Below, piece by piece: positions 1,860-33,210 of a stretch of DNA of 64,000 nt. Under the pieces are notes generated by a model. It saw only the letters and a list, made by a program, of their open reading frames with translations, made no database searches and had not been told where the DNA came from. Source of the DNA: Mesostigma viride. Taxonomy: Eukaryota; Streptophyta; Mesostigmatophyceae; Mesostigmatales; Mesostigmataceae. Numbering within the stretch: position 1 is the stretch's first letter; every line of letters begins with the position of its first letter. A program made the position numbers and the translations under genes. The DNA lies in contig RPFO01000154.1 of the NCBI GenBank assembly GCA_009746045.1, positions 8,261,693 to 8,325,692 of the forward strand. Direction: 5' to 3'.

Positions 1860-2294
<435 letters not shown>

Positions 2295-2304
2295 TGTATT
2301 GATG

Positions 2305-8099: not shown

Positions 8100-8132
8100 C
8101 CTCCAGGGTTCAGGGATGTGTGCAGGCTCAAG

Positions 8133-13689: not shown

Positions 13690-15293
13690 AACCTGTGGGG
13701 GAGCCCCTATTGTTCGGTAAGGCTGCGGCTGACGTTTTCAAGCCAAAAGCCGACACCGACGTCGCCATGCCTGACTCTGACCTCGAGCGGCTGATTAGTC
13801 GTTTCACGGTAACCGAGCCAGAGGCACAAGCCGCTGTAGCTGCTCACCCCCAACGGATGGGAGACTATCCTTGTCGGTTCGAGGGAGGTTTTCTGTACGT
13901 CCAGCTCCCGTCTGAAGCGTGGAAATTGTACGTTCCAGCCTTATGCCGCCCATCCCTTCTTTACGAGCTCCATGACGCTGCTCTGGGCGGTCACAAGGGC
14001 TCCCAGCGACTAGTGGAGATCCTCCGCCGGTCGTACTACTGGCCACATATGCGTCGCGACGCCGAGGAATACGTTCGTACGTGCCAGTCTTGTCAGATTA
14101 TGAAGCCCCGTAATACCGGGTCCCAAGCGGAGCCCCAAGAGATCCCTGACCCATTGCGCCTGTGGGACAGCAATATGATGGACTTCGTAGGCCCATTTAA
14201 GAAGTCCCCTAAGGGCAATGCTCAGATCCTTGTTTTTGTGGATCGCCTTACTAGGCGCTGCCACTTGGTGCCATGTCCCTTGACCCTCACCTCCCGTGAC
14301 TGTGCCCTATTATACCTGCAGAACGTTTTCAGATATCATGGTCTTAGCCGGCAGTTCATTGCTGATCGTGATAAGCTGTTCACTGCCTCTTTCTGGCAAG
14401 AGTTCTTCGCAGCCTTGGGCACCAAAGTACACCTTGGCACCGCCTACTACAGTTCGTCCTCCCATCTGGTTGAGCGTCTTAACCGTGTGGTTGAGGAGGC
14501 CCTCAAGCATTACGTGAGTAGTGATGGTGGTGATTGGGAGGATTACTTACCCCTCATAGAGTTCTCCCTCAACAACTCTCCACATTCTGCTCATGGGATG
14601 ACCCCCTTTCTGCTCGATACTGGACAGCACCCGTTGACTCCCACGGATTTGCTGACTAGTCCCCTTCTTACCCAGGACACACTCAAGCGCAGCACCATTC
14701 AAGGAGTGAATGAGCTGTTGAGTAAGATGGTTAAGTCCCATGAGAGCGCAGTGATCGGCTATCGTGCCGCTCGACAGAAGTACATGGCCCGCATCCGCGC
14801 CTCCCTTGACCGTCGCACTCCGCCTATTCAGGTAGGCGATCTTGTTCTGGTAGAAGGTCCCCAGCTCGGCCGTTTTGCTCACAAGGTCGAAGCTGATCTC
14901 AAGGTAAAACTGCGCCCTCACTTCCTTGGACCCTATAAGGTAGTGGAGCAGCGCGGTGAGGTCACCTTTCGCGTAGCTGTCCCTGAAACATGGGGCACCT
15001 CCGGTGTTTTCCACCGCAATCAACTCAAGCTCTACCACCAGAGTTCGTTTCAGGGACGGGAGACCCCTCCGGCGCCCTTGGAACACAATCCGGAGACGGG
15101 AGACGTGGAGGATGAAGTGGCTGCAATCATTGGCCACCGCGACGTCAAGAAGGGTCGCGGAAACCTCCGCCAATACCGCGTCAAATGGATGTATTCCAGG
15201 ACAGATGTAGAGAACAGTTGGTTCTCCGAGAAAGAGTTGGAAGGGTGTGCCCGTCTGTTGTCTGAATACAAGGCCTCTCTCAAAAACAAGTAA
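13641..15293 (+). CDS. Gypsy integrase with C-terminal chromodomain
   Basis: A 550-aa frame overlapping the RT/RNase H frame. It has an HHCC zinc domain at ~110–155 (LHDAALGGHKG, then CQSCQIMK). The integrase core carries Asp in MMDFVGPF (~178), Asp in FIADRDKLF (~240) and Glu in HLVERLNRVVEEA (~276). Near the C terminus, NLRQYRVKWMYSRTDVENSW followed by FSEKEL matches a chromodomain-like module, which in chromoviruses directs integration to methylated-histone chromatin. The gap to the upstream frame is an overlap, compatible either with programmed frameshifting or with one mutation. Otherwise this frame looks intact. Confidence 0.88.
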   Translation: MRVPLCHVAKQVYKPLEPVGEPLLFGKAAADVFKPKADTDVAMPDSDLERLISRFTVTEPEAQAAVAAHPQRMGDYPCRFEGGFLYVQLPSEAWKLYVPALCRPSLLYELHDAALGGHKGSQRLVEILRRSYYWPHMRRDAEEYVRTCQSCQIMKPRNTGSQAEPQEIPDPLRLWDSNMMDFVGPFKKSPKGNAQILVFVDRLTRRCHLVPCPLTLTSRDCALLYLQNVFRYHGLSRQFIADRDKLFTASFWQEFFAALGTKVHLGTAYYSSSSHLVERLNRVVEEALKHYVSSDGGDWEDYLPLIEFSLNNSPHSAHGMTPFLLDTGQHPLTPTDLLTSPLLTQDTLKRSTIQGVNELLSKMVKSHESAVIGYRAARQKYMARIRASLDRRTPPIQVGDLVLVEGPQLGRFAHKVEADLKVKLRPHFLGPYKVVEQRGEVTFRVAVPETWGTSGVFHRNQLKLYHQSSFQGRETPPAPLEHNPETGDVEDEVAAIIGHRDVKKGRGNLRQYRVKWMYSRTDVENSWFSEKELEGCARLLSEYKASLKNK

Positions 15294-17360
15294 GCTTACA
15301 GAAGTTCCTGGATTGTTGTGCGTTTGGTTGGTTGTCCCCTCCCATGTCAACAGATGTCACCACGCGGCAAAGAACCGCAGAGGACCTAGCCCGCCACGCA
15401 ATCCGGGCGGAAGCGTCCCCGTGAAAGTACCGATTGAGGAAGAATCGGGCTCTGAACCGGAGGAGCATTATGAGGAGGAGCATTATGAGGAGGAGCATTA
15501 TGAGGAGGAGGATTATGAGGAGGAACAGTATGAAGAGGGCCAGTTCGAAGAAGAGTATGAGGAGAACCCTGAGTTCACGCATGCTGAGTCTTACCCGGTT
15601 GAGGCCGACCCGACCTCCCACGAGCAGGCGTACCAACCTGAGCAACCATGTCCAGATGGTCCAGGTGTTCTCCCTCTCCCGAGCATGGAGCCCTCCCCGT
15701 GGATACAAGCGCAGCCCGGCCCGTCACAGCCAGTCGGGTATGTGTTGGCGCCGCCATGGACTCCGCAGGCTTCACCGTATGGTGGCTATGGAATGGTGCC
15801 CGCTGGTTATCCTGTCTACCACCCGTCACCAGATCCATCCGGTTATGCTATGCCTGCACTCGCGAGCCCAAGCGACTTGGCCGATCATGATAACAAGCGG
15901 ATCGACCGGTTGTGCTCTACTATGGAGCAAATGCTTAAGCTTATGACCCAATCGGCGGTAGCCCCTGGCGCCGCCAATCCCACGGCTGGCAACGGCTCCA
16001 TCGCTGGCGTAGCAGTAAGCGCCTCACCCCTGCCTGTGGTCCCGGTACCAACAGTGGCCCCTGAGTCTGCTGTGGCCCCTGAGTCTGTTGTGGCCCCTGA
16101 GTCTGTTGTGGCCCCTGAGCCTGAGTCTGCTGTGGCCCCTGCGCAGTGCAAGAATCCCCCGTCAACCCCGATGCCGAAGGCTGAGCCTGCTTCTTCGGGA
16201 AATCCCGTGTCGGCCACCCCAGCCGCGTCTTCAGCATCGTCGATGCAGTCGCCCACCGCGACCTCCATCCGGAAGACTTCGGAGCTCCCTGGCGCTTCCA
16301 CTGGCCCAAGTAGCGGTTTCGCTTCGCGTCCTGTGGGCCGTGGAGGTGGTAGGGGTATGGCTTTTCAGCGGCCTATGGCATCTTCCATGTTTGTGCCCCG
16401 CTCTGTTGCCCTCAACGCCGGGCGCACTAGGCGAGGGGGATTCGCCTCGGCAGTCCCACGGCCAGTGAAGGAGGCTCCCGATACTTCCTACACGGGAGGA
16501 GGTCCCGCGTCAACTCCAGCGACCGGCGCGGAATCTGTGCGACCACCAACAGGTTTGACATCCCCCACGACCTTGGCCCTAGCCATGGCAGGATTGTACA
16601 ATCTGCCCGAGCCGCTTGGTCAGATTCATATACCCATGCTTCCCAGTGATGAGCATTTCGGTCCGCCGCCCCGAGTTGCCGCGCCCGCGGCCCCTGAGGA
16701 TGCGACTCTGCCACAAGACGTCCCGCCGCCCCCTTGGGGCCTAGTGCCGTTTTATCGGCCGGCAGCAATGTCTATGCATCATGTGATAATAAGGGTCAGG
16801 TACCAGTTTCAGCGGGCTTGGACGGATCCCATCGTCCAGACGGGACAATTCGCCTACCCGGACGATGTGACAGTCGACGCTGTTCAAGGCGTGTACTTTT
16901 ACCGCCAAGTGCCGGGTCTGGAGCACCCTGCACACCTGGAGATAATCACCCAGCTGGAGCCGCTGCGACCTGCCCCTGTCCGACCCTTGGTCACGAACGA
17001 CGACCCAGACGTGCGCGTGACACCTGACCTCGGCCGCACCTGGAGGATTTCACTCGACTCCCTCGGATCATGTGGGTCTACACCGAGAACGGCAAACGAC
17101 ATCGCGTCAGAGACTTCAGATACATGCCACGTTCCGGAGAGCAATTGTTCGAGGTACTGTACCCACCTGAGATGGTGCGTGGTCTGACGATGAGTGACGT
17201 TAATACTATGCGCCTCGCAATCGTCCGTGCTGTGCGACCCTTCCTGCAAAGGTTTCAGTGTGGATTCATTGATTGGGCACGCTTGCACGTGGTGATTACC
17301 CGCCACCAGTATCTTTGGGCTTTTCTGGGCCTGCTGCCGGAGAACGTCTGGGAGGACGTC
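15247..17360 (+). CDS. Third ORF of the Gypsy element, unknown function (interrupted)
   Basis: Follows integrase on the plus strand. The N-terminal part carries a tandem EEHYE-type acidic repeat (about 15460–15560), then Pro/Ser/Ala-rich linkers with VAPESVVAPES repeats near 16050–16130. A helical stretch (RLCSTMEQMLKLM) sits near 15910. A more globular C-terminal region changes frame near 17065 and continues through RHRVRDFRYMPRSGEQLFEV. At 17360 the frame is broken by insertion of the methyltransferase-bearing Gypsy element and appears to resume at 28090. No transmembrane segment, zinc knuckle or envelope motif is visible. It could be a displaced Gag-like protein or an accessory ORF; I do not recognise the family. 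Confidence 0.6.
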
Positions 17361-17503
17361 TGTCGCGTCTGCGTGCCACAATCTCCGGCGCCACCATGGC
17401 GGCTGGCCACTCAGCTTAATTTGGTAAAACCCAAATGAGCTGAGCTGATGTGCCTGCCTTAACTGCATGCCCTGTGGGGTGGGCGAGGACCTGTCCCATG
17501 ATT
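17361..17503 (-). repeat. Extra copy of the first 143 bp of the LTR at the element's 3' terminus
   Basis: Identical over 143 bp to 18642–18784, which is the start of the 3' LTR next to the polypurine run. It lies outside the LTR, between the LTR end and the target duplication, where nothing is expected. Its outer end (TGTCGCG on the plus strand) forms the left terminus of the insertion. Confidence 0.85.
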
Positions 17504-18784
17504 AAAGAAAGGAGGGCTCTCAGCCGAGGACAAGGAACTGTCCCTCGTGCCTGATGACCACCTTATTGCCTCCCCTGCTATAGAATAATGCTTTCACAAC
17601 ACACACTTTGCACAGTCTGATGATGAAGCCGCACATGCGGAATTTATTGAGAAAGTTAATACAATTACAACACGTTGATAGTCTCAATATCGATGCACTC
17701 CATGCTCACGAGCCCGCAGTTAGGCAGCGCTCCATGACATGCTACCGGCCTTGCTCCCAAGGAAAGGGAGAAACACGAAGGCCACTAACGAGAGACTCGA
17801 AGAGACTACACGCTGCGTGAGAGTCCTCTTCGACTATGAACCAAACCATTCGTCATGCCACACGCATGACACACGCCACACTTGTCAGTCCAGCCAGGAA
17901 TGCCAAAACTATCTTGCTGCCTGAACCATGCGAATAGAAACCGCATTCCAGTTGCCGTCCTGGCTTTCTACCACACATGCCAACAAAAGCAGGAAGGCAT
18001 CCCGACAAATCTAAATTGCTACCCTGTTGCCGATCTCATCTCCTAGAGGCTCCGGCATTTCTGTCCCTGGGAATGTCCGACATTGAGTCACGTCCAGCAA
18101 GGTCGAAGCATAATATCCTTCAGACAATCTGCACGCTCACACCTTGCGTGTGAGTGGCCCAGCAAACATTGCGTCTAATCGTTCCTTTCTAGAAGAAATC
18201 CCTTTTTAGGGCTGCCAGCGATTTCGCATTCATTCCAGCGATCTGGCTCCGCACCGCAAATTGTCCTTTTCCATTTTCTGTCCAGTCCTCATAACGTTGA
18301 CCCGCTATTCTACACCACAAAGACACCTGGCCTGTCAATAGCCTCGGCGCTGTTGAAGTCCAGCAGTACAGCTTCAGCTCCAGCTGTCCACTAACACGCG
18401 TATGATCCTCTCGACGCTGCACACTTGTGCTGCCGTCCGCTCAAGTCAGTGCTGCGCGCCCAGCTGTGCCTGGCCCGGCGCGCGTGCACGTACACTTTCG
18501 TCCGCTCTTATGCTGCAAGTGCTAGTGTCCCCCCCGGTCACTAGCCTTTGTCGAAAATGCGTAGAAGACAAATTCCTTGCGCACGTCACCGGTCTTGTGC
18601 ATAGTGGGCGCCCGGATGACATAGCGCGCGTCCGTGACAGCTGTCGCGTCTGCGTGCCACAATCTCCGGCGCCACCATGGCGGCTGGCCACTCAGCTTAA
18701 TTTGGTAAAACCCAAATGAGCTGAGCTGATGTGCCTGCCTTAACTGCATGCCCTGTGGGGTGGGCGAGGACCTGTCCCATGATT
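17504..18784 (-). repeat. 3' LTR of the methyltransferase Gypsy element
   Basis: 1,281 bp on the minus strand. It begins directly after the G7 polypurine run and ends at the position equivalent to the primer-binding-site junction of the other LTR. Bases 17504–18639 match 26954–28089 with about three differences. The first 145 bp (18784–18640) are absent from the 5' LTR. Inside it, at 18636–18645, is the perfect palindrome GACAGCTGTC. Short frames inside the LTR are not genes. Confidence 0.88.
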
Positions 18785-18810
18785 CCCCCCCTCGCTGGCG
18801 ACCGGCCCCA

Positions 18811-21800
18811 TCACGAAGACAGCGATCGTACCAAGACAAGGGCAGCGGTGACCGCAGTCAAGCTGCGGGAGGTAAACTGCGCAGCGGTGCACACTGGACA
18901 AAACCAATCCCCCTCCGGAATGCTGGTGACCACGGGCTGCAAGCACTGCATGTGCCAACCACAGTTACACTGATCACACAATAACATGGACTCCGCCTGA
19001 TCGACCCGGTGACAAACCTGACACTGGGCGTCCTTGACTCGGCGAGATGTGTGCGGTTGGAGGTCGTGGACCAAATTGGGCAGTGAGCAGGGACTGAGAT
19101 TGCTGAGGTTGTCTGTCGTACGGCTCCCGTCGGCGCCCTCCAAAATTGCCACTCCCGATGGTTTGATAGCCACAATGCGCAAAATGGTGGGCCCCGCCTC
19201 CACATCCAAAGTGTGCTTCAGCTGAGTGCGCAGGAAAACATACTGCCCTGGCCTAAACCGCAGCTGGCGAGCCATGTATGCGCCCCCCCGGCGCTGAGCG
19301 TAACGCAGGGAGTCCCTGTGCTGAGCAATGAACAAGTTGTTCATCGCGATGGGCATGACCTTCTTAAAAGTCTCTGCCCTGGCCAGCACCTCAACCAAAA
19401 ATTGCTGAGCGTTGTCGAAGGCCATGGGTTCGGGGTGCGCAACCTGTGCCTCCGTAGGCAAAAGAGGATTACGCCCGAACAGAAGGAAATACGGGGAGAA
19501 GGTAGCGAGAGACTCCTGGGGAGACATGCGATAACCCATGGCAATCCATGCCAACTCGCGATCCCACCTGGCCGACTCCGGCACCTGCAGGCTCCACTTG
19601 CGCAGCGCCTGCTTGACGGTCTGCACCAATCTCTCAGCCAAACCATTGGCCTGAGGATGCTCCCGAGAAGTGCGACGGTGATCAATAAGACATCCATCCA
19701 GCAACTCCTGGAACTCACCCCTGAACTCACCACCCTGGTCCGTGACTACCTCCGCGGGAGCCCCAAACCTGGTGATGATGTCTGCAAAATGCTTCGCTGT
19801 GGTAGCGGCATGCTTGTCAGCAATGGGGATCAACTCAACCCATTTGCTAAAGCTCTCCACGCATACCATGACATAGAGGTTGCCGTCAGGGCTCTCCTGA
19901 AACGGCCCGCACAGATCGACGTGCCAGCGATAAAACAAGCCCTTGATGGGAAGCGACATCAGCTCCTTGGCACCATGATCTGCGCTAAAGTTAGCCTTGG
20001 TTCGAGCACACGGGACACAGCTGGCCACTACCTGGGCCACTGTGTGTCGCATGTTATTCCACCAATAGCTGGTCCGTACGAGGCTGAGCGTGCGATTGCC
20101 ACCCAAGTGACCATACCGCTCGTGGTACGCCTGCACTATAGCAACGCGCTTGTCAGGCGGTGGGACGACCACCCTACGCTTGCCCAACAGCTTGTACAAA
20201 ACCCCATCTTCCCAACCATAGGTTGCAGCCCTGTGCTGCACCCTGTTCAACTCCGTCGCCTTCTGAGCAGGAGTCCAATCGACTGGAGTAGGAGTCAAGA
20301 CAGCACCCTGCACTTGCTCCAAAACTCGACCATCTAGCCAGATATCAGCGGTGTAGCAATCAGCAAGAGAGCTACGCGCTAAGAGAGCCTGCACAGCGAT
20401 CAGCTGCTGCAGAGAAGGATCAATGTCAAAGGACAGAGACCTACCCTCTTCCATAGCGCACACAGCTTTGGATGGCGTGAATGGCGACGGCCGCACCGGG
20501 TCGTCGCTGATGCCGAAGTCCGCCACAGAGTACTCGACACTGCGCCACCACGCCTCCTCCTCATCGTCGGCCGCATACCCAGCAGCGTTCACAAAGACCA
20601 CAGAACCCGACGAGCCCTCGGCACCCATGGCCCGGGCTCCAGTGTGGTCAACAGTGGTAGGCATGGCGTATCGGGATAGCACATCGGCGTTGACATGGTC
20701 CTTGCCGGCCCGATGCACAATGGTCATGTGGTACTCCTGGATAATCATGGCCCATCGGGCGAGCTTACCCGTCAGGTTGGTGTTGGTCATTAGCCACTGA
20801 AGCGGCTGGTGGTCTGTCACCAGAGTAAACACGCGCCCAACTAAATACGGGCGAAAGTGCTTGATGGCCCACACCACAGCCAGTGCCTCCCCCTCATAGG
20901 AAGAATACCGGCTCTCCGCTGGGTTGTTGCTGCGACTAGCATAAGCAATAACGTGCTCGCGCCCATCACCATCCTTTTGCGCCAAGACCGCACCCAGTCC
21001 TACCTTGGACCAGTCGGTATATAACACAAACGGCAAAGCATAGTCAGGGGCGCGCAGAATCGGGGCCGACGTGAGCTCCTGCTTGATTGTCTCGATGGCG
21101 CGTTGCTGTGCGGGACCCCACGCCCACACGCACCCCTTCTTGAGTAACTCGGTCAAGGGCTTCACCTTGCTGCTGAAGTTCTCAATGTAACCTCGGTAAT
21201 AGCCAGCCAAACCCAAATACGCCCGCACCCCTGAGACATCCGTGGGTACGGCGGCCTGCACAATGGATTCGACCTTGGCGGCATCAGGCGTCCGGCCACC
21301 CGGCACAATCTGATGACCAAGGAATGAGAGGGTCCGCTGGGCGAACTTGCACTTCTCAGGGTGCAGCCGCATATTATGCTCCTCGAGAGCCAAGCGAACC
21401 TGCTCCAAGTGCGCCAGGTGCTCCTCAAATGTCGCGCTAAAGACGATTACATCATCAATGTAACAAGCGGCGAAAGGAAGACCTGCAAGCACTTTGTCCA
21501 TAGCTCGTTGGAAAACAGCACTAGCGTTGCGGTGCCCAAAGGGCATGCGCACCCACTCATACAAATTGCCGCCCCCCCAGAATGCAAGCTTCCGCTGATC
21601 CTCCGGCGCAACTGCGATCTGATGAAAGCCGCTACGCAGGTCCAGCGAGGACACAAACTTCACATGAGGAGATATCTTATCCAGGACATCATCCACACGT
21701 GGCATGGGGTAACGGTCCACGGGTGTGTGTGCATTCAGCAACCGCAGATCGGTGGCCATGCGCATACCCGTCCATGCCCCGGTGATAGCGTCCTTCTTGG

Positions 21801-24800
21801 GCGCAACGACAACGGCAGCGGCATAGCTGGAGGAAGATTGCCTGATGATACCGGCATCCTCTAACTCCTTGCATTGCTCGGCTACAAAATCCAACTCGGC
21901 CTGACTCAGGCGATGCTGGCGTCGGAACAAAGGGGTGTCAGTGTCCAATGGAACACGCATGGTCCCACCATTGAAACACCCCAGTTCATCACTTGTGAAA
22001 GCGAAGGCCCCCCTTGCAGTGCCTAGCCACTTTAGCATGGCTGAGCGCTGCGCATCAGAAAGGTGTTCGCCAATAGCCCAGGGGTGCGTATCCGCGGGAT
22101 CACCCACAGCTACCGCATGTGCCTCAAGATGCGGCGCCCTAGCCGCATCGTCGTGGAACAAGGAAAAGGCTGCCACGCCTGGTGTGACACCCACCGCCGG
22201 AGCCTCGCGTGCCGCACGGTGTATTACCCGATGCAGCGTGGGCTCGCCGGCCAGCACGGTGCTGGTCAGCAGGGCGGTCATGAGAATGATAGTCCACACC
22301 TGTCGCAGACGCCACCCCCATGCTGATGAAGTCCCCGTCGCTGCAGGGCGCTTCAGTTTGGCTGCGCGCGCCTCAACCTGCTGAGGCGGATTGGCTGGGG
22401 ACGCCCCCCCAGACTGGCGCACGGCAACCGATGCAAGCAGCACATACCCGACCTGCAACACCGACATAGCCTGGCCTATCAAAGACCAGCGCTCACTCTC
22501 GAGCACGCCCGGCAGCGCCGAGGCCCCGACATGAAAACCCATGCTGGCCTCACGAAATTCTGCGGGTGGCTGCACCAACAGACCGGTGGTAGTGTCCCAA
22601 ACGAGACCCTTACCCCGATCACGGTATGCTGTCGACCCTTGGTAACTGACCAGGGTCGGCAGTGCACACATGGGGCTCCCGACCCGGTTGACGCGTGCAT
22701 ACGGTGGGCGATCCTCGCTATCCACCTTCTGCGTGACTAGGTGGGAAGGCAATGCTACCTCCGCAGACACACTCGGATGCTGCCTTGCTACGGCCCCCAA
22801 GACCGCCTGCACATCGGTCGCACACGCCACGTTGGTCCAATAGGCACGCAAACGATGCGTGAGCCCACCCAGCCCTGCGTTGTCACACACGATGGGCTCC
22901 CCCAGGAGTGCCACGATTGTAGCCCAGTCCTCCCGCACCGCCTGATGTGGGCTGTCACCCGCCACAACGTTCTCAAACAGATACGCAGGCGGATGGGGCT
23001 GACGCGACTGCAACAGTCCCACCACACGCAACAGTTCCCAGAACAGCGCGCTACGCGGATCGGCTAGCCCCCGCCCTTGCCCTGCCTGGCTCAGGCCCTG
23101 GCACTCCCAACCCGCAATTACCAAGTCGATGGCATGATGCCTGCGCAACAACTGCTGCACCTGCACCTCACCGATGGCTCGGATATCTTGAGGACATTCC
23201 CCAAACGGGTCACGCCATGCTGATGGCGGAAACTGCGCGGGATACTCTCGCGACAACACGCCACAGTGACTGAAGTACACCTGACGCGCCTTGTGCGATG
23301 GCTCTACCGCGATGAGTTTACGGCACACGCCGCCTGCGGCCAAAAAGCCTGCAATGCCCCCTCCGATCCCCGCAAACAGTTCCAACACTACCGCACCCTT
23401 GGCAAAATCAGGGGCCTGCGGTAAGATTGCAGCAGAAAAATTACCTTGGGCCTCCGAGACACCCGGTTGCAGCAAAGTGAGGCCATGGCTGGCCATCTGA
23501 GGAATGGTGATGACGGCTTCAGTTACCCGCTTGCGCATAGCCAGCTGCCGCGTGGACGTCACAGCATCCAGCGACCACTGCGTGCGCATCTTGGCAATGC
23601 TCGCCGTTGGCTGGGGCAGCACCGTCCGATGCTTGTCCCACGCCGATGAGCCCGCCGCCCGTACCTCCACCATGCTGACCTCCACCACGCCCGCAGCCGC
23701 GGAAGGGTTGAGGCGTGCAGCCCCGGCTGAAGAACTGAAGCATGAGACCGGCACGCTGGCCCGCTTCAGGCCAGCCCCATCCCAATCAGGGATGTAAGAT
23801 GCCTCCTCCGCCCTATAGTCCACCTGAACCATGGCGCGAGCAAGGACATCCACCCCGAGTAGTGCGGAATATCCACACTTGTTGACCACCAGCGCATACG
23901 CGGACACGGTGGTCATGCTAGAGGCGCGCAACGGATTGAAAATCACGTTGACTTTAACCGCCGTCATAGCGTACGGCTTACTAGCCGGACCCTGCCAACC
24001 TGACACAGACACGGGGCTTTCCACTAAGCCACCGTTCTCGTAGGTCAGGTTCAGCATGGTGGCCAAGTCCGTGCTGATGACTAGCGGCTGAGCACCGCTA
24101 TCAAGCTTGACTGCGCCAACCAACGGACATGTCACCATGTCGCTCCATACATCTCCACAGGCTCCAACTGCTTGGAACGCCATGGACGGCTCACCATTGG
24201 GGTATGGAACCACCGTGGGAACCTGGGGGACTGCACTAGTGCGCTGCTGGCTACTTGTGCTGACCACTCCCGCTTGCACCACGGGCACTGCGGCTTCTAC
24301 CGGCTGGCGCCCGTAGGTGACGGACTCAGAATTGCGCAAGGTGCGCACATCATGCCCATCTGCGAACAACTGGATCTCGGACACAACCGACCCCAGCCAC
24401 TCAACCCCCTTCTGCCCGAAGGTGTCGACCACCTGCCGTGCTGAAAACATGGGTACGTCCACAATGAACGGCATTGGGTACACAGGCGCCAATCGCCTAC
24501 GCTGCTCCAGCCCAGCAGGGTTCGCATGCTCAAAAGCAGATTGCACCCCAGCCAGCGGCATGGAAAAGGACGCGGGCAACTGCCCGGCAGGCAACATGGG
24601 TGCCTGCTGAAAAGAAAGCGGGCTGCGTGCCTGCTTGCCTTTGGTAGCCTCCGCAGCGTTGATCTCGACGTCACCCGGCATGGGCGCCCAGAATGGGTCC
24701 TCCCGGTACACCGTCTCGAATTGGTTGGGGGGCGCCGTCGCCTCCTCACCATGCTTGATGGCAGCCACCTGGGCTTCCATCGAGTCGGTCTTGCCCGCCA

Positions 24801-24849
24801 TCTCGGCGAAGTGGACCGTCTTGATGCCCGCGGCTGGACACTTGTTCAT
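18811..24849 (-). CDS. Gypsy pol: protease, C5 DNA methyltransferase, RT, RNase H, integrase, PHD finger
   Basis: A single 2,012-aa minus-strand frame without stop codons. Protease near residue 250 (VKLDSGAQPLVIS, later ALLGVDVL). A C5-cytosine methyltransferase at ~485–800 with motif I (LELFAGIGGG), motif IV with the catalytic Cys (AGWECQGLSQAG, then DPRSALF), motif VI (LFENVV), an RLR motif VIII (LTHRLRAYW) and motif X (IGQAMSV). RT at ~970–1150 (FVSSLDLRSGFHQI, CYIDDVIVFS near 1128). RNase H from ~1275 (LYTDWSKVGLGAV). Integrase with HHCC (RYGHLGG, then CVPCARTK) and D,D,E in WHVDLCGPF, VVTDQGGEF and GLAERLVQ. A PHD finger at ~1940–1990. Between methyltransferase and RT lies a short hydrophobic stretch (VWTIILMTALLTSTVLA). 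The frame stays open upstream of the first ATG through the zinc knuckle, so translation is probably by frameshift from gag rather than from 24849. The copy looks intact. Confidence 0.93.
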   Translation of the reverse strand: MNKCPAAGIKTVHFAEMAGKTDSMEAQVAAIKHGEEATAPPNQFETVYREDPFWAPMPGDVEINAAEATKGKQARSPLSFQQAPMLPAGQLPASFSMPLAGVQSAFEHANPAGLEQRRRLAPVYPMPFIVDVPMFSARQVVDTFGQKGVEWLGSVVSEIQLFADGHDVRTLRNSESVTYGRQPVEAAVPVVQAGVVSTSSQQRTSAVPQVPTVVPYPNGEPSMAFQAVGACGDVWSDMVTCPLVGAVKLDSGAQPLVISTDLATMLNLTYENGGLVESPVSVSGWQGPASKPYAMTAVKVNVIFNPLRASSMTTVSAYALVVNKCGYSALLGVDVLARAMVQVDYRAEEASYIPDWDGAGLKRASVPVSCFSSSAGAARLNPSAAAGVVEVSMVEVRAAGSSAWDKHRTVLPQPTASIAKMRTQWSLDAVTSTRQLAMRKRVTEAVITIPQMASHGLTLLQPGVSEAQGNFSAAILPQAPDFAKGAVVLELFAGIGGGIAGFLAAGGVCRKLIAVEPSHKARQVYFSHCGVLSREYPAQFPPSAWRDPFGECPQDIRAIGEVQVQQLLRRHHAIDLVIAGWECQGLSQAGQGRGLADPRSALFWELLRVVGLLQSRQPHPPAYLFENVVAGDSPHQAVREDWATIVALLGEPIVCDNAGLGGLTHRLRAYWTNVACATDVQAVLGAVARQHPSVSAEVALPSHLVTQKVDSEDRPPYARVNRVGSPMCALPTLVSYQGSTAYRDRGKGLVWDTTTGLLVQPPAEFREASMGFHVGASALPGVLESERWSLIGQAMSVLQVGYVLLASVAVRQSGGASPANPPQQVEARAAKLKRPAATGTSSAWGWRLRQVWTIILMTALLTSTVLAGEPTLHRVIHRAAREAPAVGVTPGVAAFSLFHDDAARAPHLEAHAVAVGDPADTHPWAIGEHLSDAQRSAMLKWLGTARGAFAFTSDELGCFNGGTMRVPLDTDTPLFRRQHRLSQAELDFVAEQCKELEDAGIIRQSSSSYAAAVVVAPKKDAITGAWTGMRMATDLRLLNAHTPVDRYPMPRVDDVLDKISPHVKFVSSLDLRSGFHQIAVAPEDQRKLAFWGGGNLYEWVRMPFGHRNASAVFQRAMDKVLAGLPFAACYIDDVIVFSATFEEHLAHLEQVRLALEEHNMRLHPEKCKFAQRTLSFLGHQIVPGGRTPDAAKVESIVQAAVPTDVSGVRAYLGLAGYYRGYIENFSSKVKPLTELLKKGCVWAWGPAQQRAIETIKQELTSAPILRAPDYALPFVLYTDWSKVGLGAVLAQKDGDGREHVIAYASRSNNPAESRYSSYEGEALAVVWAIKHFRPYLVGRVFTLVTDHQPLQWLMTNTNLTGKLARWAMIIQEYHMTIVHRAGKDHVNADVLSRYAMPTTVDHTGARAMGAEGSSGSVVFVNAAGYAADDEEEAWWRSVEYSVADFGISDDPVRPSPFTPSKAVCAMEEGRSLSFDIDPSLQQLIAVQALLARSSLADCYTADIWLDGRVLEQVQGAVLTPTPVDWTPAQKATELNRVQHRAATYGWEDGVLYKLLGKRRVVVPPPDKRVAIVQAYHERYGHLGGNRTLSLVRTSYWWNNMRHTVAQVVASCVPCARTKANFSADHGAKELMSLPIKGLFYRWHVDLCGPFQESPDGNLYVMVCVESFSKWVELIPIADKHAATTAKHFADIITRFGAPAEVVTDQGGEFRGEFQELLDGCLIDHRRTSREHPQANGLAERLVQTVKQALRKWSLQVPESARWDRELAWIAMGYRMSPQESLATFSPYFLLFGRNPLLPTEAQVAHPEPMAFDNAQQFLVEVLARAETFKKVMPIAMNNLFIAQHRDSLRYAQRRGGAYMARQLRFRPGQYVFLRTQLKHTLDVEAGPTILRIVAIKPSGVAILEGADGSRTTDNLSNLSPCSLPNLVHDLQPHTSRRVKDAQCQVCHRVDQAESMLLCDQCNCGWHMQCLQPVVTSIPEGDWFCPVCTAAQFTSRSLTAVTAALVLVRSLSS
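18887..19030 (-). CDS. PHD finger at the C terminus of pol
   Basis: Within the last ~70 residues of pol. The C4-H-C3 zinc pattern is complete: CQVC, then LLCDQC, GWH, MQC, and GDWFCPVC. The Trp two residues before the last Cys pair is typical of the fold. PHD fingers bind histone H3 tails (often K4 methylation state). The module occupies the place a chromodomain takes in the neighbouring Gypsy element, so a role in choosing the integration site is the natural inference. Confidence 0.9.
22440..23405 (-). CDS. C5-cytosine DNA methyltransferase domain within pol
   Basis: Part of the pol frame, listed separately because it is unusual. Motif order and spacing (I, IV, VI, VIII, target-recognition region, X) fit the whole Dnmt/bacterial M.HhaI-like fold at about 320 aa. 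The catalytic Cys is kept, but the Pro of the usual PCQ is Glu (ECQ). The ENV Glu that stabilises the flipped cytosine is present. Expected reaction: S-adenosylmethionine-dependent methylation of cytosine C5. Cytosine methyltransferases inside retrotransposons have been reported from dinoflagellates and charophyte algae (de Mendoza and colleagues, 2018). Whether this is the same lineage cannot be judged here. Confidence 0.9.
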
Positions 24850-26657
24850 CAGGTGCCACTTCGTGTCTGCCCCATGCGGCTTCGTGCAGCGGCTTGGACA
24901 CTCGCGACTAAGGTGCCCATCCTTGTCGCAAAGGAAGCAGCCCGATTTGCGCGCATCCGTCCTAGTACCCGTCTGTGAGGACGTGCCCCCCCAGCTCGCG
25001 TCGGGGCGGCAGCGTCTTTGTTGCCGCCAGCGGCGTTACCCTGGGTTGCATCATGCGATGAGGCGTTGCGAGACCCCCCTTGGTTCCTGCTAGCACCGTG
25101 GCCGCCTTGCGGGCGCGCTTGTCTTGTGGCAGACGACTCACCCGACTTGGCCTTGGTCAGCGCGTCGACCTTGGCCTGCAGCTCGGCCACCACCGTGCTT
25201 ACCGAGATCCGGCCTTGCGCGTGTCGTCGCATCATGGCCCTGACCTCAATGCACAGTGACCGCAATCGCCACGGCTGGCCGTTGGGCGGCGTGGGCAGCT
25301 CCATCTCCTTGGAGCCTAGCGCTTGCAGCCATTTCTGACACGCCAGCTTTTCGGACCAGTCCTCCACTTCGCCGGCGAACTCCATGAGGCGCTCGTAAGA
25401 TTGCTCCGGGGTTTCACCCTCGGCTATCTTGAAACTGCGCCACTCACGCTCTGCCTTGATGGTCTCCACCGGGTATTCCTGGCGAAGGAGGCCCCACAGT
25501 TCCTCGGCAGGGTCGACACCATACATGATGTTGTCATAGTCGGGCTGGCCACGCCCGTCGAAGCCGAACCACACGTCCGTGTGACGCGTGTACAGCGAGA
25601 CCTCTCTCCACTGCTCCACCAGCCTAGCCACTCGCCTCAGCGTAAGGCCGTGAAAGAAAAAATGCATGTTGTTCATCACAAACTCATGCATTACAGCGCC
25701 TTGCGTAGTCATGTATTGCAGATCAATCCATGACTTGTACGCGTTGTAGGCCTGCGCCAGCGTGGCCAGATTGCCGGTTGTGGAGAACTTCTCGCGCATG
25801 TCCACCCGTGGTAGGGTGGGCATCTTCGCGCCTTCCGGTATGAGGCGCACCCTTTGCGGGTACTGCACCCCATCGGCATCCTCCGGCGGTCGCTGAGCTG
25901 CGCGTCCCTGCGCCAGCGTGCTTGGTCGTGCTGCCTCCCGTACTCGGAAAGCCAGCGGCGTGGTTATGTCCTCCATGGGCGGAATGCGCCCGATTGGCAC
26001 ACTTGACCACCGTGCAGTCGACCCGCCGGTCAGCGCCCCACCGCCTCGCCCAAACGGAATTGAGGCCCCGCCTGGCAGCATGCGTCCTGGTGCACCCCTG
26101 TGTGGGTCCATCGCGCGCGCCAGCCCTGCCCCGTTCTCCTCGTGCAATCCGTCTCGCGCTTGATCGAAAGGCAGGCGCCTGGGCGCCAGCGTATACTCGC
26201 CCCGTGGCTGACCATCCGCCTCACCAAGCAAGTCGTGTTGGGTTAGCGACCCAGCCAAAACCCCCGGTTCCATCGAAGCCCTTCCCGCCGCATTACCTGA
26301 GGTTGGCGGCTGGTCCCGCTCCCTCGGCTCCGCGGCAACACCACTGGGGCCCGGCATCGATGCCTGCCCGTCCCATGGTGTGGACTGCAGATGACGACCC
26401 TCTACGGCCACCAATCTGTCGGTCACTTCCCGCATCTGCAGCGCCAATTGCTGCTGCAACTGTTGCGACTGTTGCTGCATCTGCGCTTGCATCTGCGCGA
26501 ACAGCGCCACCATACTCAGCGGCGCTTCTTGGTCGCGACTCTCACCCACTGCGGGTACGGCGGGAGGAATCCCGCCATTCGACCCCGGAGCGGACGTGTC
26601 GGCATCTGCTCTATTTGCATCTGCCATGGCTCGAGTCTGCGCTCGCGTCAGTGGCAT
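24850..26657 (-). CDS. Gag of the methyltransferase Gypsy element
   Basis: About 600 aa from the ATG at 26657 (a longer frame starts at 26684, but MPLTRAQTRAMAD resembles a natural Gag start). A disordered N terminus with a Gln-rich coiled-coil segment (QQSQQLQQQLALQMREV) is followed by a capsid-like helical region (AYNAYKSWIDLQY, EWRSFKIAEGETPEQSYERL). The zinc knuckle (CFLCDKDGHLSREC, ~24895–24940) is not in this frame but in the pol frame. The switch fits a −1 slip on the G run near 24984–24990, where gag reads GCT-GGG-GGG. The tail of the gag frame after that point is therefore probably bypassed by frameshifting ribosomes, or the run has lost or gained a base. Confidence 0.85.
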
Positions 26658-26938
26658 GCACCAGCTGACCGATGGGCAAAACAAGAACCAACAAGCCTAG
26701 GTTTCGCTGAGAAGAAGCAACAACCAAAGGCTTTATAACAGGTGTCAAGGATAACGACTCGACTAGCCTGCCAGAAAAAGACAAGAGCCAGCAAATTCTG
26801 GCTAGTTCTATTTTCTTAAAATCTGTCTCAAGACACTTCCTTTACAAACTGTCAGCCAGGCCGTTCCCTGTACTGCTGATGGTTGCTAAACACTAAAGCC
26901 AACGTCTTGGCTTCGAACAGAAGGAAGCAGACTACCGG

Positions 26939-26953
26939 GTAGTCTCTTCGAGT
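26939..26953 (-). promoter_or_regulatory. Putative self-complementary primer-binding site
   Basis: Abuts the inner end of the 5' LTR. On the minus strand it reads ACTCGAAGAGACTAC, the exact reverse complement of a 15-nt site inside the same LTR (27244–27258 and, in the other LTR, 17795–17809). No tRNA-like TGG primer site is present at this position. The arrangement matches self-primed Gypsy elements such as fission yeast Tf1, whose RNA 5' end folds back on the site next to the LTR. If so, the transcript starts near 27258. Confidence 0.6.
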
Positions 26954-28089
26954 AAAGAAAGGAGGGCTCTCAGCCGAGGACAAGGAACTGTCCCTCGTGC
27001 CTGATAACCACCTTATTGCCTCCCCTGCTATAGAATAATGCTTTCAAACACACACTTTGCACAGTCTGATGATGAAGCCGCACATGCGGAATTTATTGAG
27101 AAAGTTAATACAATTACAACACGTTGATAGTCTCAATATCGATGCACTCCATGCTCACGAGCCCGCAGTTAGGCAGCGCTCCATGACATGCTACCGGCCT
27201 TGCTCCCAAGGAAAGGGAGAAACACGAAGGCCACTAACGAGAGACTCGAAGAGACTACACGCTGCGTGAGAGTCCTCTTCGACTATGAACCAAACCATTC
27301 GTCATGCCACACGCATGACACACGCCACACTTGTCAGTCCAGCCAGGAATGCCAAAACTATCTTGCTGCCTGAACCATGCGAATAGAAACCGCATTCCAG
27401 TTGCCGTCCTGGCTTTCTACCACACATGCCAACAAAAGCAGGAAGGCATCCCGACAAATCTAAATTGCTACCCTGTTGCCGATCTCATCTCCTAGAGGCT
27501 CCGGCATTTCTGTCCCTGGGAATGTCCGACATTGAGTCACGTCCAGCAAGGTCGAAGCATAATATCCTTCAGACAATCTGCACGCTCACACCTTGCGTGT
27601 GAGTGGCCCAGCAAACATTGCGTCTAATCGTTCCTTTCTAGAAGAAATCCCTTTTTAGGGCTGCCAGCGATTTCGCATTCATTCCAGCGATCTGGCTCCG
27701 CACCGCAAATTGTCCTTTTCCATTTTCTGTCCAGTCCTCATAACGTTGACCCGCTATTCTACACCACAAAGACACCTGGCCTGTCAATAGCCTCGGCGCT
27801 GTTGAAGTCCAGCAGTACAGCTTCAGCTCCAGCTGTCCACTAACACGCGTATGATCCTCTCGACGCTGCACACTTGTGCTGCCGTCCGCTCAAGTCAGTG
27901 CTGCGCGCCCAGCTGTGCCTGGCCCGGCGCGCGTGCACGTACACTTTCGTCCGCTCTTATGCTGCAAGTGCTAGTGTCCCCCCCCGGTCACTAGCCTTTG
28001 TCGAAAATGCGTAGAAGACAAATTCCTTGCGCACGTCACCGGTCTTGTGCATAGTGGGCGCCCGGATGACATAGCGCGCGTCCGTGACA
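26954..28089 (-). repeat. 5' LTR of the methyltransferase Gypsy element (lacks first 145 bp)
   Basis: 1,136 bp, about 99.7% identical to 17504–18639. It starts on the minus strand with TGTCACGG at 28089 and is followed on its inner side by the primer-binding site. It lacks the 143-bp block plus GC that precede TGTCACGG in the 3' LTR. If the self-priming model holds, U3 is ~830 bp and R-U5 ~305 bp. Confidence 0.88.
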
Positions 28090-28201
28090 CGTCTATCTCC
28101 GCAGCGAGCGCCCTCCCCTGGGTGTCCGTGGAGACGTGCAACGTGACTATACTCGCGCCGTGCTCAACGCCCGAGGAATGTTTCAAGGTGATCCGGAATA
28201 G
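28090..28201 (+). CDS. Resumed C-terminal end of the third Gypsy ORF
   Basis: After the insertion and its CGTC duplication, an open frame continues for 35 codons (VYLRSERPPLGVR…, ending GMFQGDPE) to a TAG at 28199–28201. It is in the phase expected if GTC at 17358–17360 is joined to GTC at 28091–28093. It is short, so support comes from phase and placement rather than homology. Confidence 0.5.
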
Positions 28202-29070: not shown

Positions 29071-30789
29071 ACTCGTCGTCTGTCCCAACTCAGTCCTAAT
29101 AATAGGACTGAGTTGACCTTTTTCAACCGTGTGTAGTGACTAGGTGGGGGGTCCATCCAAGATGCTTAGATGTGGGTCTATGGAGTATTTGATGTCCTCT
29201 TGCTGGCAAAAATACTACATCAGTGAAAACTTGACCCAAACTCCTAAAAATTACATGGATGTATGGCACCGTCGGCGAATTTGCATTTTTGTGTGGAAGC
29301 ATGAGTGGCAAAAATTGAATAAATTCCATGTGCATGTTAAAAAAATACAGGCATGTAAACAATATAGTTCTTGACCTGTGGCAAAAAACTGGACTCAATT
29401 TGGCCACTGGCACTGCCTGAAACACGCCAAATACTGCCAGTCCTATACATAGGACTGGGCCATGCTAGCAATTTGCAAGCATGTAAGTGCGGTCATACTT
29501 CTTAGTAGCGTGGCCACAAACCATGTCAATCAGGCCATTTCCCTTCAGGCATAATAGGAAAACATACTTGCATCATCATATTGCAGTTATATTGTACCTT
29601 AGTATGTGTGAAAGCCTATGCATACATATAGGGAATGCGTATGGATACGTAGCTACCAAGGGATGTATTATAAGTAATAACCACCGATATAATGGGTAGG
29701 TTAGTCACATTTAATTGTTCTTTACAAATATGGACATGGATAAAACTGTATGACCTTGCCATGACATGGCCAAGATACCTGCTGGCACATTATGACAGTG
29801 GTTTATCACCAAGATTTTTCACTCACCCGTATAAGCTTGACAGTACCCTTGACGCAGCCCATGACCACACAATCATGCAGTATGAACATAGCAAGAGAAT
29901 AACTAACATCTATGAAAGTGTTTTAACCCATTCAGCACCTAAAACCTTGTACAGCCACGCTACGGTAAGGCAAATGCCTGGTAAGATCATCTAAAAAGAT
30001 GGTTTTAGAGAGGGGCAGGCAACGGTCAAGAAAGAGCAGCAAGACTCAAAACTGACAGCGCATCGCAAGCTTAAACTCATGTAAGAATACCAAGAAACGA
30101 TGAAGCAGCGATATTCCAGCTTTACCTGGCACGGCTGGCGTTACCTTGGCCCAGGCGGTGCCAGCAAAAGTGGCACTTTGTGGCACACAAACCATGACGT
30201 GACAGAGTGGTCGAAATCATCAAATCTTTACTGCCACTAGACTTAATCTACGACAATACATGATAAAAGGTAGAAAGAAACCTATAAACCCTTCGATTTG
30301 ATCCGGGAATCAATTGTAGTAATCCATTCCGTCGACCTGCCTAATCGCAGATTTTTCCAGCAAGAACAGTGCCGACACCCAGTAAATCGCATCCCCGCGA
30401 GGTTAAAATTCACTTGTATCATCTTTAGAACATAAAAAATCTATTTCCTGGGTTTGGCCCGCAAAATCGTCCGAAAACGTAAACTGCATGCATGGGCGCA
30501 AGCCGCCATGGCTAGGTCACGTATTTCCGGAACTCACGTTTCGCGTGAAAATGTACCCTTACCACCTGTACTTTCACCGTACGGTTAGCCGCCCAAATCA
30601 AATCCAAAAAAATCGCAAAAATATGTCCAAGAAAGATCTTTTCAAGTAGTATTTGAATAAATTTTGAGAAAAATTTTCTGCCAAATATTCCGACCGGGGC
30701 GAATTTTCTACAAAACCTCAAAATTAGGTCCTAAAATTAGGACTGAGTTGAACTCAGTCCTAAAATTAGGACCAGGGACAGACGACGAT
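29071..30789. mobile_element. Possible non-autonomous element bounded by imperfect inverted repeats
   Basis: The left end reads CGTCGTCTGTCCC, then AACTCAGTCCTAATAATAGGACTGAGTTGACC. The right end, on the opposite strand, reads the same CGTCGTCTGTCCC followed by two rounds of TCCTAATTTTAGGACTGAGTT-like palindrome. The interior (1.7 kb) is AT-richer than its surroundings, has only short frames, and shows no transposase. A smaller palindrome (AGTCCTATACATAGGACT) sits at 29437–29455. It could be a foldback/MITE-like element or two independent palindromic repeats. Confidence 0.4.
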
Positions 30790-33210
30790 CTTCTTCTTCT
30801 TCTTCTTCTTCTTCTTCTTCTTCTTCTTCTTCTTCTTCTTCTTCTTCTTCTTCTTCTTCTTCTTCTTCTTCTTCTTCTTCTTCTTCTTCTTCTTCTTCTT
30901 CTTCTTCTTCTTCTTCTTCTTCTTCTTCTTCTTCTTCTTCTTCTTCTTCTTCTTCTTCTTCTTCTTCTTCTTCTTCTTCTTCTTCTTCTTCTTCTTCTTC
31001 TTCTTCTTCTTCTTCTTCTTCTTCTTCTTCTTCTTCTTCTTCTTCTTCTTCTTCTTCTTCTTCTTCTTCTTCTTCTTCTTCTTCTTCTTCTTCTTCTTCT
31101 TCTTCTTCTTCTTCTTCTTCTTCTTCTTCTTCTTCTTCTTCTTCTTCTTCTTCTTCTTCTTCTTCTTCTTCTTCTTCTTCTTCTTCTTCTTCTTCTTCTT
31201 CTTCTTCTTCTTCTTCTTCTTCTTCTTCTTCTTCTTCTTCTTCTTCTTCTTCTTCTTCTTCTCTTCTTCTTCTTCTTCTTCTTCTTCTTCTTCTTCTTCT
31301 CTTCTTCTTCTTCTTCTTCTTCTTCTTCTTCTTCTTCTTCTTCTTCTCTTCTTCTTCTTCTTCTTCTTCTTCTTCTTCTTCTTCTTCTTCTTCTTCTTCT
31401 TCTTCTTCTTCTTCTTCTTCTTCTTCTTCTTCTTCTTCTTCTTCTTCTTCTTCTTTCTCTTCTTCTTCTTCTTCTTCTTCTTCTTCTTCTTCTTCTTTCT
31501 TCTTCTTCTTCTCTTCTTCTTCTTCTTCTTCTTTCTTCTTCTTCTTCTTCTTCTTCTTCTTCTTCTTCTTCTTCTTCTTTTCTTCTTCTTCTTCTCTTCT
31601 TCTTCTTCTCTTCTTCTTCTTCTTCTTCTTCTTCTTCTTCTTCTTTCTTCTTCTTCTTCTTCTCTTCTTCTTCTTCTCTTCTTCTTCTTCTTCTTCTCTT
31701 CTTCTTCTTCTTCTTCTTCTTCTTCTTCTTCTTCTTCTTCTTCTTCTTCTTCTTCTTCTTCTTCTTCTTCTTCTTCTTCTTCTTCTTCTTCTTTCTTCTT
31801 CTTCTTCTTCTTCTTCTTCTTCTTCTTCTTCTTCTTCTTCTTCTTCTTCTTCTTCTCTTCTTCTTCTTCTTCTTCTTCTTCTCTTCTTCTTCTTCTTCTT
31901 CTTCTTCTTCTTCTTCTTCTTCTTCTTCTTCTTCTTCTTCTTCTTCTTCTTCTTCTTCTTCTTCTTCTTCTTCTTCTTCTTCTCTTCTTCTTCTTCTTCT
32001 TCTTCTTCTTCTTCTTCTTCTTCTTCTTCTTCTCTTCTTCTTCTTCTTCTTCTTCTTCTTCTTCTTCTTCTTCTTCTTCTTCTTCTTCTTCTTCTTCTTC
32101 TTCTTCTTCTTCTTCTTCTTCTTCTTCTTCTTCTTCTTCTTCTTCTTCTTCTCTTCTTCTTCTTCTTCTTCTTCTTCTTCTTCTCTTCTTCTTCTTCTTC
32201 TTCTTCTTCTTCTTCTTCTTCTTCTTCTTCTTCTTCTTCTTCTTCTTCTTCTTCTTCTCTTCTTCTTCTTCTTCTTCTTCTTCTTCTTCTTCTTCTTCTT
32301 CTTCTTCTTCTTCTTCTTCTTCTTCTTCTTCTTCTTCTTCTTCTTCTTCTTCTTCTTCTTCTTCTTCTTCTTCTTCTTCTTCTTCTTCTTCTTCTTCTTC
32401 TTCTTCTTCTTCTTCTTCTTCTTCTTCTTCTTCTTCTTCTTCTTCTTCTTCTTCTTCTTCTTCTTCTTCTTCTTCTTCTTCTTCTTCTTCTTCTTCTTCT
32501 TCTTCTTCTTCTTCTTCTTCTTCTTCTTCTTCTTCTTCTTCTTCTTCTTCTTCTTCTTCTTCTTCTTCTTCTTCTTCTTCTTCTTCTTCTTCTTCTTCTT
32601 CTTCTTCTTCTTCTTCTTCTTCTTCTTCTTCTTCTTCTTCTTCTTCTTCTTCTTCTTCTTCTTCTTCTTCTTCTTCTTCTTCTTCTTCTTCTTCTTCTTC
32701 TTCTTCTTCTTCTTCTTCTTCTTCTTCTTCTTCTTCTTCTTCTTCTTCTTCTTCTTCTTCTTCTTCTTCTTCTTCTCTTCTTCTTCTTCTTCTTCTTCTT
32801 TCTTCTTCTTCTTCTTCTTCTTCTTCTTCTTCTTCTTCTTCTTCTTCTTCTTCTTTCTTCTTCTTCTTCTTCTTCTTCTTCTTCTTCTTCTTCTTCTTCT
32901 TCTTCTTCTTCTTCTTCTTCTTCTTCTTCTTCTTCTTCTTCTTCTTCTTCTTCTTCTTCTTCTTCTTCTTCTCTTCTTCTTCTTCTTCTTCTTCTTCTTC
33001 TTCTTCTTCTCTTCTTCTTCTTCTTCTTCTTCTTCTTCTTCTTCTTCTTCTTCTTCTTCTTCTTCTTCTTCTTCTTCTTCTTCTTCTTCTTCTTCTTCTT
33101 CTTCTTCTTCTTCTTCTTCTTCTTCTTCTTCTTCTTCTTCTTCTTCTTCTTCTTCTTCTTCTTCTTCTTCTTCTTCTTCTTCTTCTTCTTCTTCTTCTTC
33201 TTCTTCTTCT
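30790..33210. repeat. 2.4-kb CTT/GAA trinucleotide microsatellite
   Basis: Nearly pure CTT on the plus strand for 2,421 bp. The first ~470 bp and the stretch ~32270–32775 are uninterrupted. Elsewhere single-base gains or losses (CTCTT, CTTTCTT) shift the phase about 30 times. It is read as long Leu/Phe/Ser or Arg/Glu/Lys frames that are artefacts. Long GAA·TTC tracts are known to form triplex DNA and to be unstable. Confidence 0.98.

Follow-up and report, generated by a model that had tools for sequence, protein, structure and literature searches.

Retrotransposons that carry a DNA methyltransferase (DNMT) have been described by de Mendoza et al. (2018, PMC5890265). According to that description, the KnitGypsy-Dnmt3 element of Klebsormidium nitens contains a Dnmt3-related domain in a Gypsy Pol and is arranged as A-coding-B-A-B, an order presented there as the repeats of DIRS elements; the SymbioDIRS-Dnmt3 and SymbioLINE-Dnmt elements of dinoflagellates combine a DNMT with tyrosine recombinase or LINE machinery, the DIRS type again being arranged as A-coding-B-A-B. 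DAM and DCM retrotransposons are mentioned in green algae (PMC6338049), and DNMT3 in retrotransposons of streptophytes and dinoflagellates (PMC12344493); among the literature searched, KnitGypsy-Dnmt3 itself was found in PMC5890265 only. That a transposon should carry the type of enzyme that hosts use for transposon silencing raises the question why. Here we describe a retrotransposon of Mesostigma viride that is complete end to end and occupies positions 17361-28089, on the minus strand, of a 64,000-nucleotide stretch of contig RPFO01000154.1 (assembly GCA_009746045.1), referred to below as the window.

The element belongs with the KnitGypsy-Dnmt3 kind, which is already known, and has the order A1-coding-B1-A2-B2 (A, 1137 nt; B, 142 nt). 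Unlike the dinoflagellate elements, it encodes a DDE integrase. It differs from KnitGypsy-Dnmt3 in host and sequence, and its Pol carries a PHD finger, a module unmentioned in the main text of PMC5890265. A K. nitens pol protein with the DNMT before the reverse transcriptase (RT), P0041, is probably of the KnitGypsy-Dnmt3 family and falls in the same lineage as the Mesostigma element; it contains PCQ and EHV where the latter contains ECQ and ENV.

The element is young and multi-copy, with a Ty3/Gypsy-type Pol. Searches of the whole genome (439.9-Mb assembly, 2243 contigs) gave, for the 3' end and the 5' end alike, at least 40 full-length matches that are near-identical; both counts are lower bounds, since 40 of 763 and 40 of 685 candidates, respectively, were scored. 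The insertion in the window is recent, because A1 and A2 as delimited here (99.6% identical) differ by only one substitution and two single-base indels. The open pol frame of 2074 codons is also present in three other genomic copies. The same genome contains a second subfamily, whose DNMT is 66% identical to that of the first. Three EukProt proteins labelled Mesvir1 match this second subfamily: P0133 (98.9% over its whole length), P0155 (97.6% over 165 of 181 residues) and, more weakly and in pieces, P0146 (69-92%). M. viride is reported to carry 5-methylcytosine, mainly in CG (PMC6947507).

A preliminary description of this locus had claimed a complete C5-cytosine DNMT, at 22440-23405, in one uninterrupted frame with protease and RT. 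The motifs that it named are all present, in order, on the minus strand: FAGIGG (within 23356-23385), GWECQGLS (23089-23112, its catalytic Cys being pol residue 645), ENV (within 22963-22983), HRLR (within 22837-22857) and IGQAMS (within 22459-22482). Following that description, we take these to be the C5-methyltransferase motifs I, IV (Cys), VI (ENV), VIII (RxR) and X. The claimed span agrees with the domain as delimited here (Table 1), and the single stop-free pol frame holds, in order, the CCHC knuckle, protease, DNMT, RT, RNase H, integrase and PHD finger. PF00145, proposed as a check, does match (E = 9.9e-11, 42.1 bits against a cut-off of 22), though along profile positions 3-111 of 324 only; for the C-terminal part, support comes from the family alignment and the predicted structure. 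Structural modelling, named there as a possible route to refutation, yielded a predicted DNMT fold with DNMT3A as the best match. The in-frame fusion of a complete-looking C5-DNMT within a retrotransposon Pol is thus borne out by Pfam, the family alignment and the predicted structure, and chance motif matches are excluded by Pfam, a reversed-sequence control and the predicted fold.

By profile, the domain is closer to DNMT3 than to other C5-methyltransferases: the DNMT3A chains score 94 bits, followed by 4onj (62), DRM2 (56), HhaI (45), DNMT2 (32) and DNMT1 (12), where 4onj is presumably a plant methyltransferase of the DRM type. On profile and modelled fold, the domain is of DNMT3 type, genuine and intact-looking. 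Compared with the DNMT3A/DNMT3B catalytic domain it shows 24% identity, has ECQ in place of PCN and was modelled over 325 residues, as against 283 in chain 6f57_D; DNMT3A has ADD and PWWP domains beside its catalytic domain, which the Mesostigma element lacks. A methyltransferase acting on RNA (the genomic RNA or the tRNA primer) rather than on DNA would be in keeping with the fact that Pol proteins handle RNA, and de Mendoza et al. raised this idea for SymbioLINE (PMC5890265). The nearest solved relatives of the present domain, however, are the DNA enzymes DNMT3A, DNMT3B and DNMT3C, and the RNA enzyme DNMT2 scores 32 bits against 94, such that we consider an RNA substrate distinctly unlikely.

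A HhaI-like DNMT (FPCQ), different in type, was also encountered in the genome, next to uncharacterised open reading frames (ORFs), at loci L001-L008 (contigs C1468, C35, C47, C64, C79, C340, C389 and C815). Ten places share an identical PF00145 score, and six of the seven fetched lie on contigs of 22-44 kb; these loci may represent a mobile element, for instance an endogenous virus-like one.

The order protease-RT-RNase H-integrase, with a DDE (rve) core, is that of Ty3/Gypsy elements. The tyrosine recombinase (PF00589) that marks DIRS elements was not matched in the pol or gag frames, the integrase being of the rve type instead. The gag frame gave no Pfam match. Relative to gag, pol lies in the -1 frame, with an overlap at 24849-25035; the gag frame, including this overlap, is matched at 100% in three further genomic copies, so the overlap is no defect of the window copy alone. 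In a locus of subfamily 2 (L048) the frame change, also -1, falls between protease and DNMT, compared with between gag and zinc knuckle in the window. The PHD finger, the gag frame and the split-type terminal repeats extend the preliminary description.

Table 1. Coordinates of the retrotransposon features in the window, with the evidence for each
Feature	Position	Strand	Evidence or remark
Target-site duplication copy, CGTC on plus strand	28090-28093		13 of 16 paired copies have a 4-bp duplication, window copy included
A1, 5' terminal direct repeat, 1137 nt, begins TGTCACGG	26953-28089	-	99.6% identical to A2
gag frame, stop to stop, 615 codons	24849-26696	-	ORF list
pol frame, stop to stop, 2074 codons	18811-25035	-	ORF list
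CCHC zinc knuckle	24892-24942	-	Pfam zf-CCHC, E 0.0018, 18.7 bits, under the curated cut-off of 20.8
Aspartic protease region	23791-24111	-	Weak Pfam match, E 0.1; family profile, 68 bits
DNMT3-like C5-cytosine methyltransferase domain; Cys codon 23101-23103	22462-23400	-	Pfam, family profile and alignment, predicted structure
Reverse transcriptase	21136-21906	-	RVT_1, E 1.7e-27, and family profile
RNase H	20632-21120	-	RT_RNaseH, E 2.3e-38
Integrase (zinc-binding H2C2 and rve core)	19078-20232	-	E 9.4e-17 and 1.5e-10
PHD finger, C-terminus of Pol	18886-19026	-	PF00628, E 8.5e-9
Polypurine tract GCGAGGGGGGGA, immediately before B1	18784-18795	-	Same rule in the subfamily-2 copy read
B1, internal short-repeat copy, 142 nt, ends GCGACA	18642-18783	-	Identical to B2
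GC spacer (2 nt) separating the end of B1 from the start of A2; lies in the middle of the window's only GACAGCTGTC palindrome	18640-18641		29 of 30 loci
A2, 3' long-repeat copy, 1137 nt	17503-18639	-	99.6% identical to A1
B2, terminal short-repeat copy, ends GCGACA	17361-17502	-	Ending shared by all 40 scored 3' matches
Target-site duplication copy, CGTC on plus strand	17357-17360		Window sequence

Relatives of the element were sought with pol residues 1000-2060 (the RT-PHD part, without the DNMT) among proteins of 0.55-1.75 times the query length. Of the best 120 of 311, 119 (P0005-P0123) were counted; P0003, the one left over, had been known beforehand. With a profile built on 13 of these domains (E < 1e-5), the DNMT was detected in 109 of the 119, and none of the reversed sequences scored. 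The ten relatives without the domain comprise three from the pseudoscorpion Cordylochernes (the tree outgroup), one each from Tetraselmis (labelled Tetstr1) and Klebsormidium, and five others. Named hosts of DNMT-bearing proteins include Chlamydomonas, Pleodorina, Tetrabaena, Haematococcus, Monoraphidium, Scenedesmus, Chromochloris (labelled Chrzof1), Klebsormidium and Closterium, that is, green algae of several groups; the majority of the entries are metagenome proteins. The earlier statement that such fusions are known only from a few lineages was consequently too narrow. PMC5890265 interprets the DNMT as having been acquired in the K. nitens lineage, whereas the lineage delimited here spans several green-algal groups.

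Two positions of the DNMT account for all but one of the 113 domain-bearing proteins: 29 contain it before the RT, as in the window, and 83 between RNase H and integrase, the remaining protein being a protease-DNMT form without RT. In a pol tree based on RT, RNase H and integrase (115 of 123 proteins, eight incomplete or composite ones being left out), the post-RNase H position forms one clade nested within the pre-RT position, with a base support of 0.31 and with two members that lack the DNMT inside it. In a DNMT tree of 54 of the 113 domains and eight references, the same position occupies one side of a branch, requiring one change compared with a shuffled mean of 18.7 (support 20). One early capture of a DNMT3-type domain, before the RT, followed by one relocation would most simply account for these trees. 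This suggestion conflicts with the independent acquisition published for the K. nitens lineage (PMC5890265). Separate captures in the elements of Mesostigma, Klebsormidium and the chlorophytes, of the kind suggested in 2018 for K. nitens, would fit the existence of two positions in Pol and gain from the thin reference sampling of the DNMT tree; they fit poorly with the nesting of the second position, the single change on the DNMT tree and the fact that one profile is common to all of the domains, and we regard them as fairly unlikely.

The preliminary description had singled out ECQ, in place of PCQ, as an unusual variant. It is indeed unusual among DNMTs at large, but within the family it is the majority form, present in 62 of the 111 aligned rows against 19 with PCQ; the residue preceding the Cys is Glu in 73 rows and Pro in 23. 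For 89 rows, the pol tree requires at least 13 switches between Glu and Pro (after shuffling, mean 19 and minimum 15), so their exchange seems easily tolerated. All four catalytic residues, Cys-Glu-Arg-Arg, are kept in 96 of the 110 complete rows. The Cys is absent in nine of the 111, all belonging to one volvocine-type clade (Chlamydomonas, Pleodorina, Tetrabaena and six others: P0003, from Chlamydomonas, with P0022, P0024, P0027, P0035, P0038, P0040, P0042 and P0123); the pol tree includes eight of these nine and accounts for them by one loss.

This clade serves as a natural control. Identities were compared within the post-RNase H architecture only, leaving out P0123, and spacers were compared in five volvocine pairs only. 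Among Cys-bearing elements with an integrase identity of 0.55-0.65 (95 pairs), the DNMT and RT show similar identities of 0.53 and 0.52, whereas in the volvocine clade, over the same integrase range (16 pairs), the DNMT falls to 0.31 and the RT stands at 0.70; the integrase of this clade has therefore also evolved somewhat faster relative to the RT. In four of the five sampled volvocine pairs, the DNMT identity lies between those of its two spacers. Between the two Mesostigma subfamilies, the proportion of nonsynonymous differences (pN) in the DNMT is 0.228 and that of synonymous differences (pS) 0.735, the synonymous sites being near saturation; two linkers have pN values of 0.378 and 0.396, the RT 0.129 and the integrase 0.184. 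The loss of the Cys together with relaxed constraint on the DNMT in most pairs is as expected if selection maintains catalysis elsewhere, and the comparison argues for selected catalysis in the rest of the family.

The opposite view would be that the domain is retained for a non-catalytic task, perhaps to bind DNA or RNA or to act as a spacer within Pol, with its activity irrelevant or lost and the ECQ form crippled. The prevalence of Glu before the Cys is compatible with this view, as are the persistence of the volvocine clade without the Cys, the fairly conserved DNMT of one of its pairs (0.81) and the inactivity in yeast of the K. nitens domain (PMC5890265). A purely structural role, however, predicts the opposite of what accompanies Cys loss in most volvocine pairs, namely relaxed constraint on the whole domain, and the Cys, the Glu and both Arg residues have been kept in the 96 rows across deep divergence. 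In our view a purely non-catalytic domain is unlikely; the DNMT probably functions as a de novo C5-cytosine methyltransferase.

The termini combine features of two retrotransposon types. The ends TGTCAC...GCGACA and the 4-bp target duplication correspond to the TG...CA ends with duplication of long terminal repeat (LTR) organisation. Two identical full LTRs, on the other hand, were not found, since A1 lacks B and the two ends are A and A-B. The A-coding-B-A-B order is shared with split-direct-repeat retrotransposons of the DIRS/PAT type, which differ from the Mesostigma element in having a tyrosine recombinase rather than a DDE integrase with 4-bp target duplications; the DIRS tyrosine recombinase leaves no target duplication.

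All of the 40 scored matches to a B2-A2-B1-pol query end in GCGACA, at 34 distinct flanks including that of the window (12 of the matches form six same-flank pairs). The query itself holds B-A-B, and this collection therefore demonstrates recurrence and not the share of copies so built. At the 5' end, 38 of 40 scored matches pass from flank directly into A1, one of them beginning CGTCAC, and represent 36 distinct flanks (two pairs share a flank); in the remaining two, B precedes, one being a tandem unit and the other recombined. Both ends could be paired by hand from the 5' and 3' match lists in 16 copies, the window copy included, and 13 of these are bounded by a 4-bp target duplication. The three exceptions are C2217 (with a 5' flank also found in C1493), C2111 and one C998 copy.

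The junctions are equally regular. A2|B2 is identical at 30 of 30 loci, reads CTTTA|ATCATGGG and, in element orientation, unites the A end as found at A1|coding with the B start as found after the polypurine tract. B1-GC-A2 with its GACAGCTGTC palindrome recurs at 29 of 30 loci. In subfamily 2, the copy read to both ends has the same repeat order, with a B2 apparently about 45 bp short, and the GC spacer is present in four of four copies. An accident of the window copy, by unequal recombination or misassembly, might be suspected from the irregular copies of subfamily 1, namely C224 (A-int-B), the head-to-tail tandem C111, the tandem unit C1690:2859142 and the recombined C133. Such an origin of the A-B-A-B termini is highly improbable in view of the 40 full-length B-A-B matches at 34 flanks, the target duplications, the same order and junctions in a subfamily of different sequence and the A-coding-B-A-B order published for the K. 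nitens element (PMC5890265). An accidental origin of the 145-bp extra repeat was likewise ruled out by that published order and the genomic copies. C133 (B-A-int-B-A) was considered as a trapped linear complementary DNA (cDNA) and rejected as such: a diverged B repeat in its 3' flank makes recombination likelier.

Taken together, these data point to a Gypsy-type element that captured a DNMT3 domain early, uses it as a working enzyme on its own cDNA and integrates from a circular cDNA, a joint reading to which we assign a probability of roughly 0.6. The DNMT, either released from the Pol polyprotein or kept within it, would be delivered together with RT and integrase, and its most likely substrate would be the cDNA of the element, before or at integration. 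Plus-strand priming at the polypurine tract before B1 would generate a cDNA with the repeats B-A; joining of its ends (A-end and B-start) would create the A|B junction of the integrated copies and leave integrase-type ends, TGTC...GACA, at the inner B|A junction. Opening of the circle at B|A by the DDE integrase would then produce A-coding-B-A-B flanked by a 4-bp duplication. Judged by the junctions, a circular cDNA appears to be the simplest route. Opening of a circle at abutted ends has an analogy in IS3-type minicircles. The PHD finger probably directs integration to chromatin, by analogy to chromoviruses, in which a histone-reader domain lies behind the integrase; theirs is a chromodomain, not a PHD finger.

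Several observations weigh against this joint reading. Pol is out of frame with gag, and the -1 change is only putatively programmed. No TGG tRNA-type primer site was seen by eye next to A1 in either subfamily, the host tRNAs being outside this comparison, which leaves the start of reverse transcription unexplained. The 3' matches are the best 40 of 763, selected with a B-A-B query, and C224 consists of A-coding-B only, with the duplication AACC. In the volvocine pair P0022/P0024, the DNMT (0.81) is more conserved than its spacers (0.67-0.71) despite the loss of the Cys. The single capture depends, in the DNMT tree, on one DNMT3 reference, a branch of 85% SH-aLRT and long branches, and one bacterial row falls among the retrotransposon DNMTs. 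The preliminary description suggested that the element may methylate its own DNA or that of the host. The observed/expected (o/e) CpG ratio is 0.85 in the element and 0.83-0.85 nearby, so that CpG depletion, considered as a mutational footprint of self-methylation, is not seen in the element relative to its flanks; in so young a copy a footprint may not yet have formed. Finally, the isolated KnitGypsy-Dnmt3 domain gave no detectable methylation of yeast DNA; the authors of that test regard it as inconclusive, human DNMT3B having likewise shown no activity. Methylation of CG in yeast was obtained with two SymbioDIRS DNMTs (PMC5890265).

A bolder account, put forward tentatively and in our estimation somewhat doubtful, would have one ancient DNMT3 capture found the green-algal Gypsy-type lineage, with a circular cDNA (GACA-GC-TGTC) opened by the DDE integrase and methylated before insertion, and with decay of the domain following the loss of catalysis in volvocines. 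If true, this account would call for a revision of the independent acquisition published for K. nitens and would place the replication mode of the lineage, as a hybrid, between those of LTR and DIRS elements. The Klebsormidium case suggests itself as the tip of a much older association, and the termini suggest that DIRS-like split repeats are usable by elements with a Gypsy-type Pol and a DDE integrase. With more than 100 distinct proteins and one clade without the catalytic Cys, the question of why a transposon carries such an enzyme becomes testable by comparison and mutation.

In a literature search by titles and abstract starts, with subscription papers and Repbase outside its scope, nothing beyond the 2018 paper was found on DNMT3 or PHD modules in Gypsy elements of chlorophytes or Mesostigma, or on Gypsy elements with split direct repeats. 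New within that literature are the breadth of the lineage, the shift of the DNMT within Pol, the natural control offered by Cys loss in volvocines, the PHD finger and the joint occurrence of target duplications and split direct repeats. A viral source of the element was also considered and set aside: one scan of viral_contigs gave no related locus, and none of its 29 pattern matches was confirmed.

Scans of the window with Rfam (gathering threshold) and for tRNA gave no matches. By eye, a second Gypsy-type pol with a chromodomain-like end lies at 11146-15293 (plus strand), a LINE-type endonuclease/RT at 39899-42864 (minus strand) and copia-like pol frames at 3-1610 and 4746-8951 (minus strand). 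The region 1-9000, which includes these copia-like frames, has a CpG o/e of 0.36; the other non-element stretches that were measured range from 0.83 to 0.85. The low value looks like that of a methylated, old sequence. Host-like gene pieces at 45779-55990 (minus strand) presumably resemble GPATCH1- and SURP-type splicing proteins. A pyrimidine triplet repeat, almost pure and about 2.5 kb long, occupies 30750-33210 and leaves several frames of either strand open.

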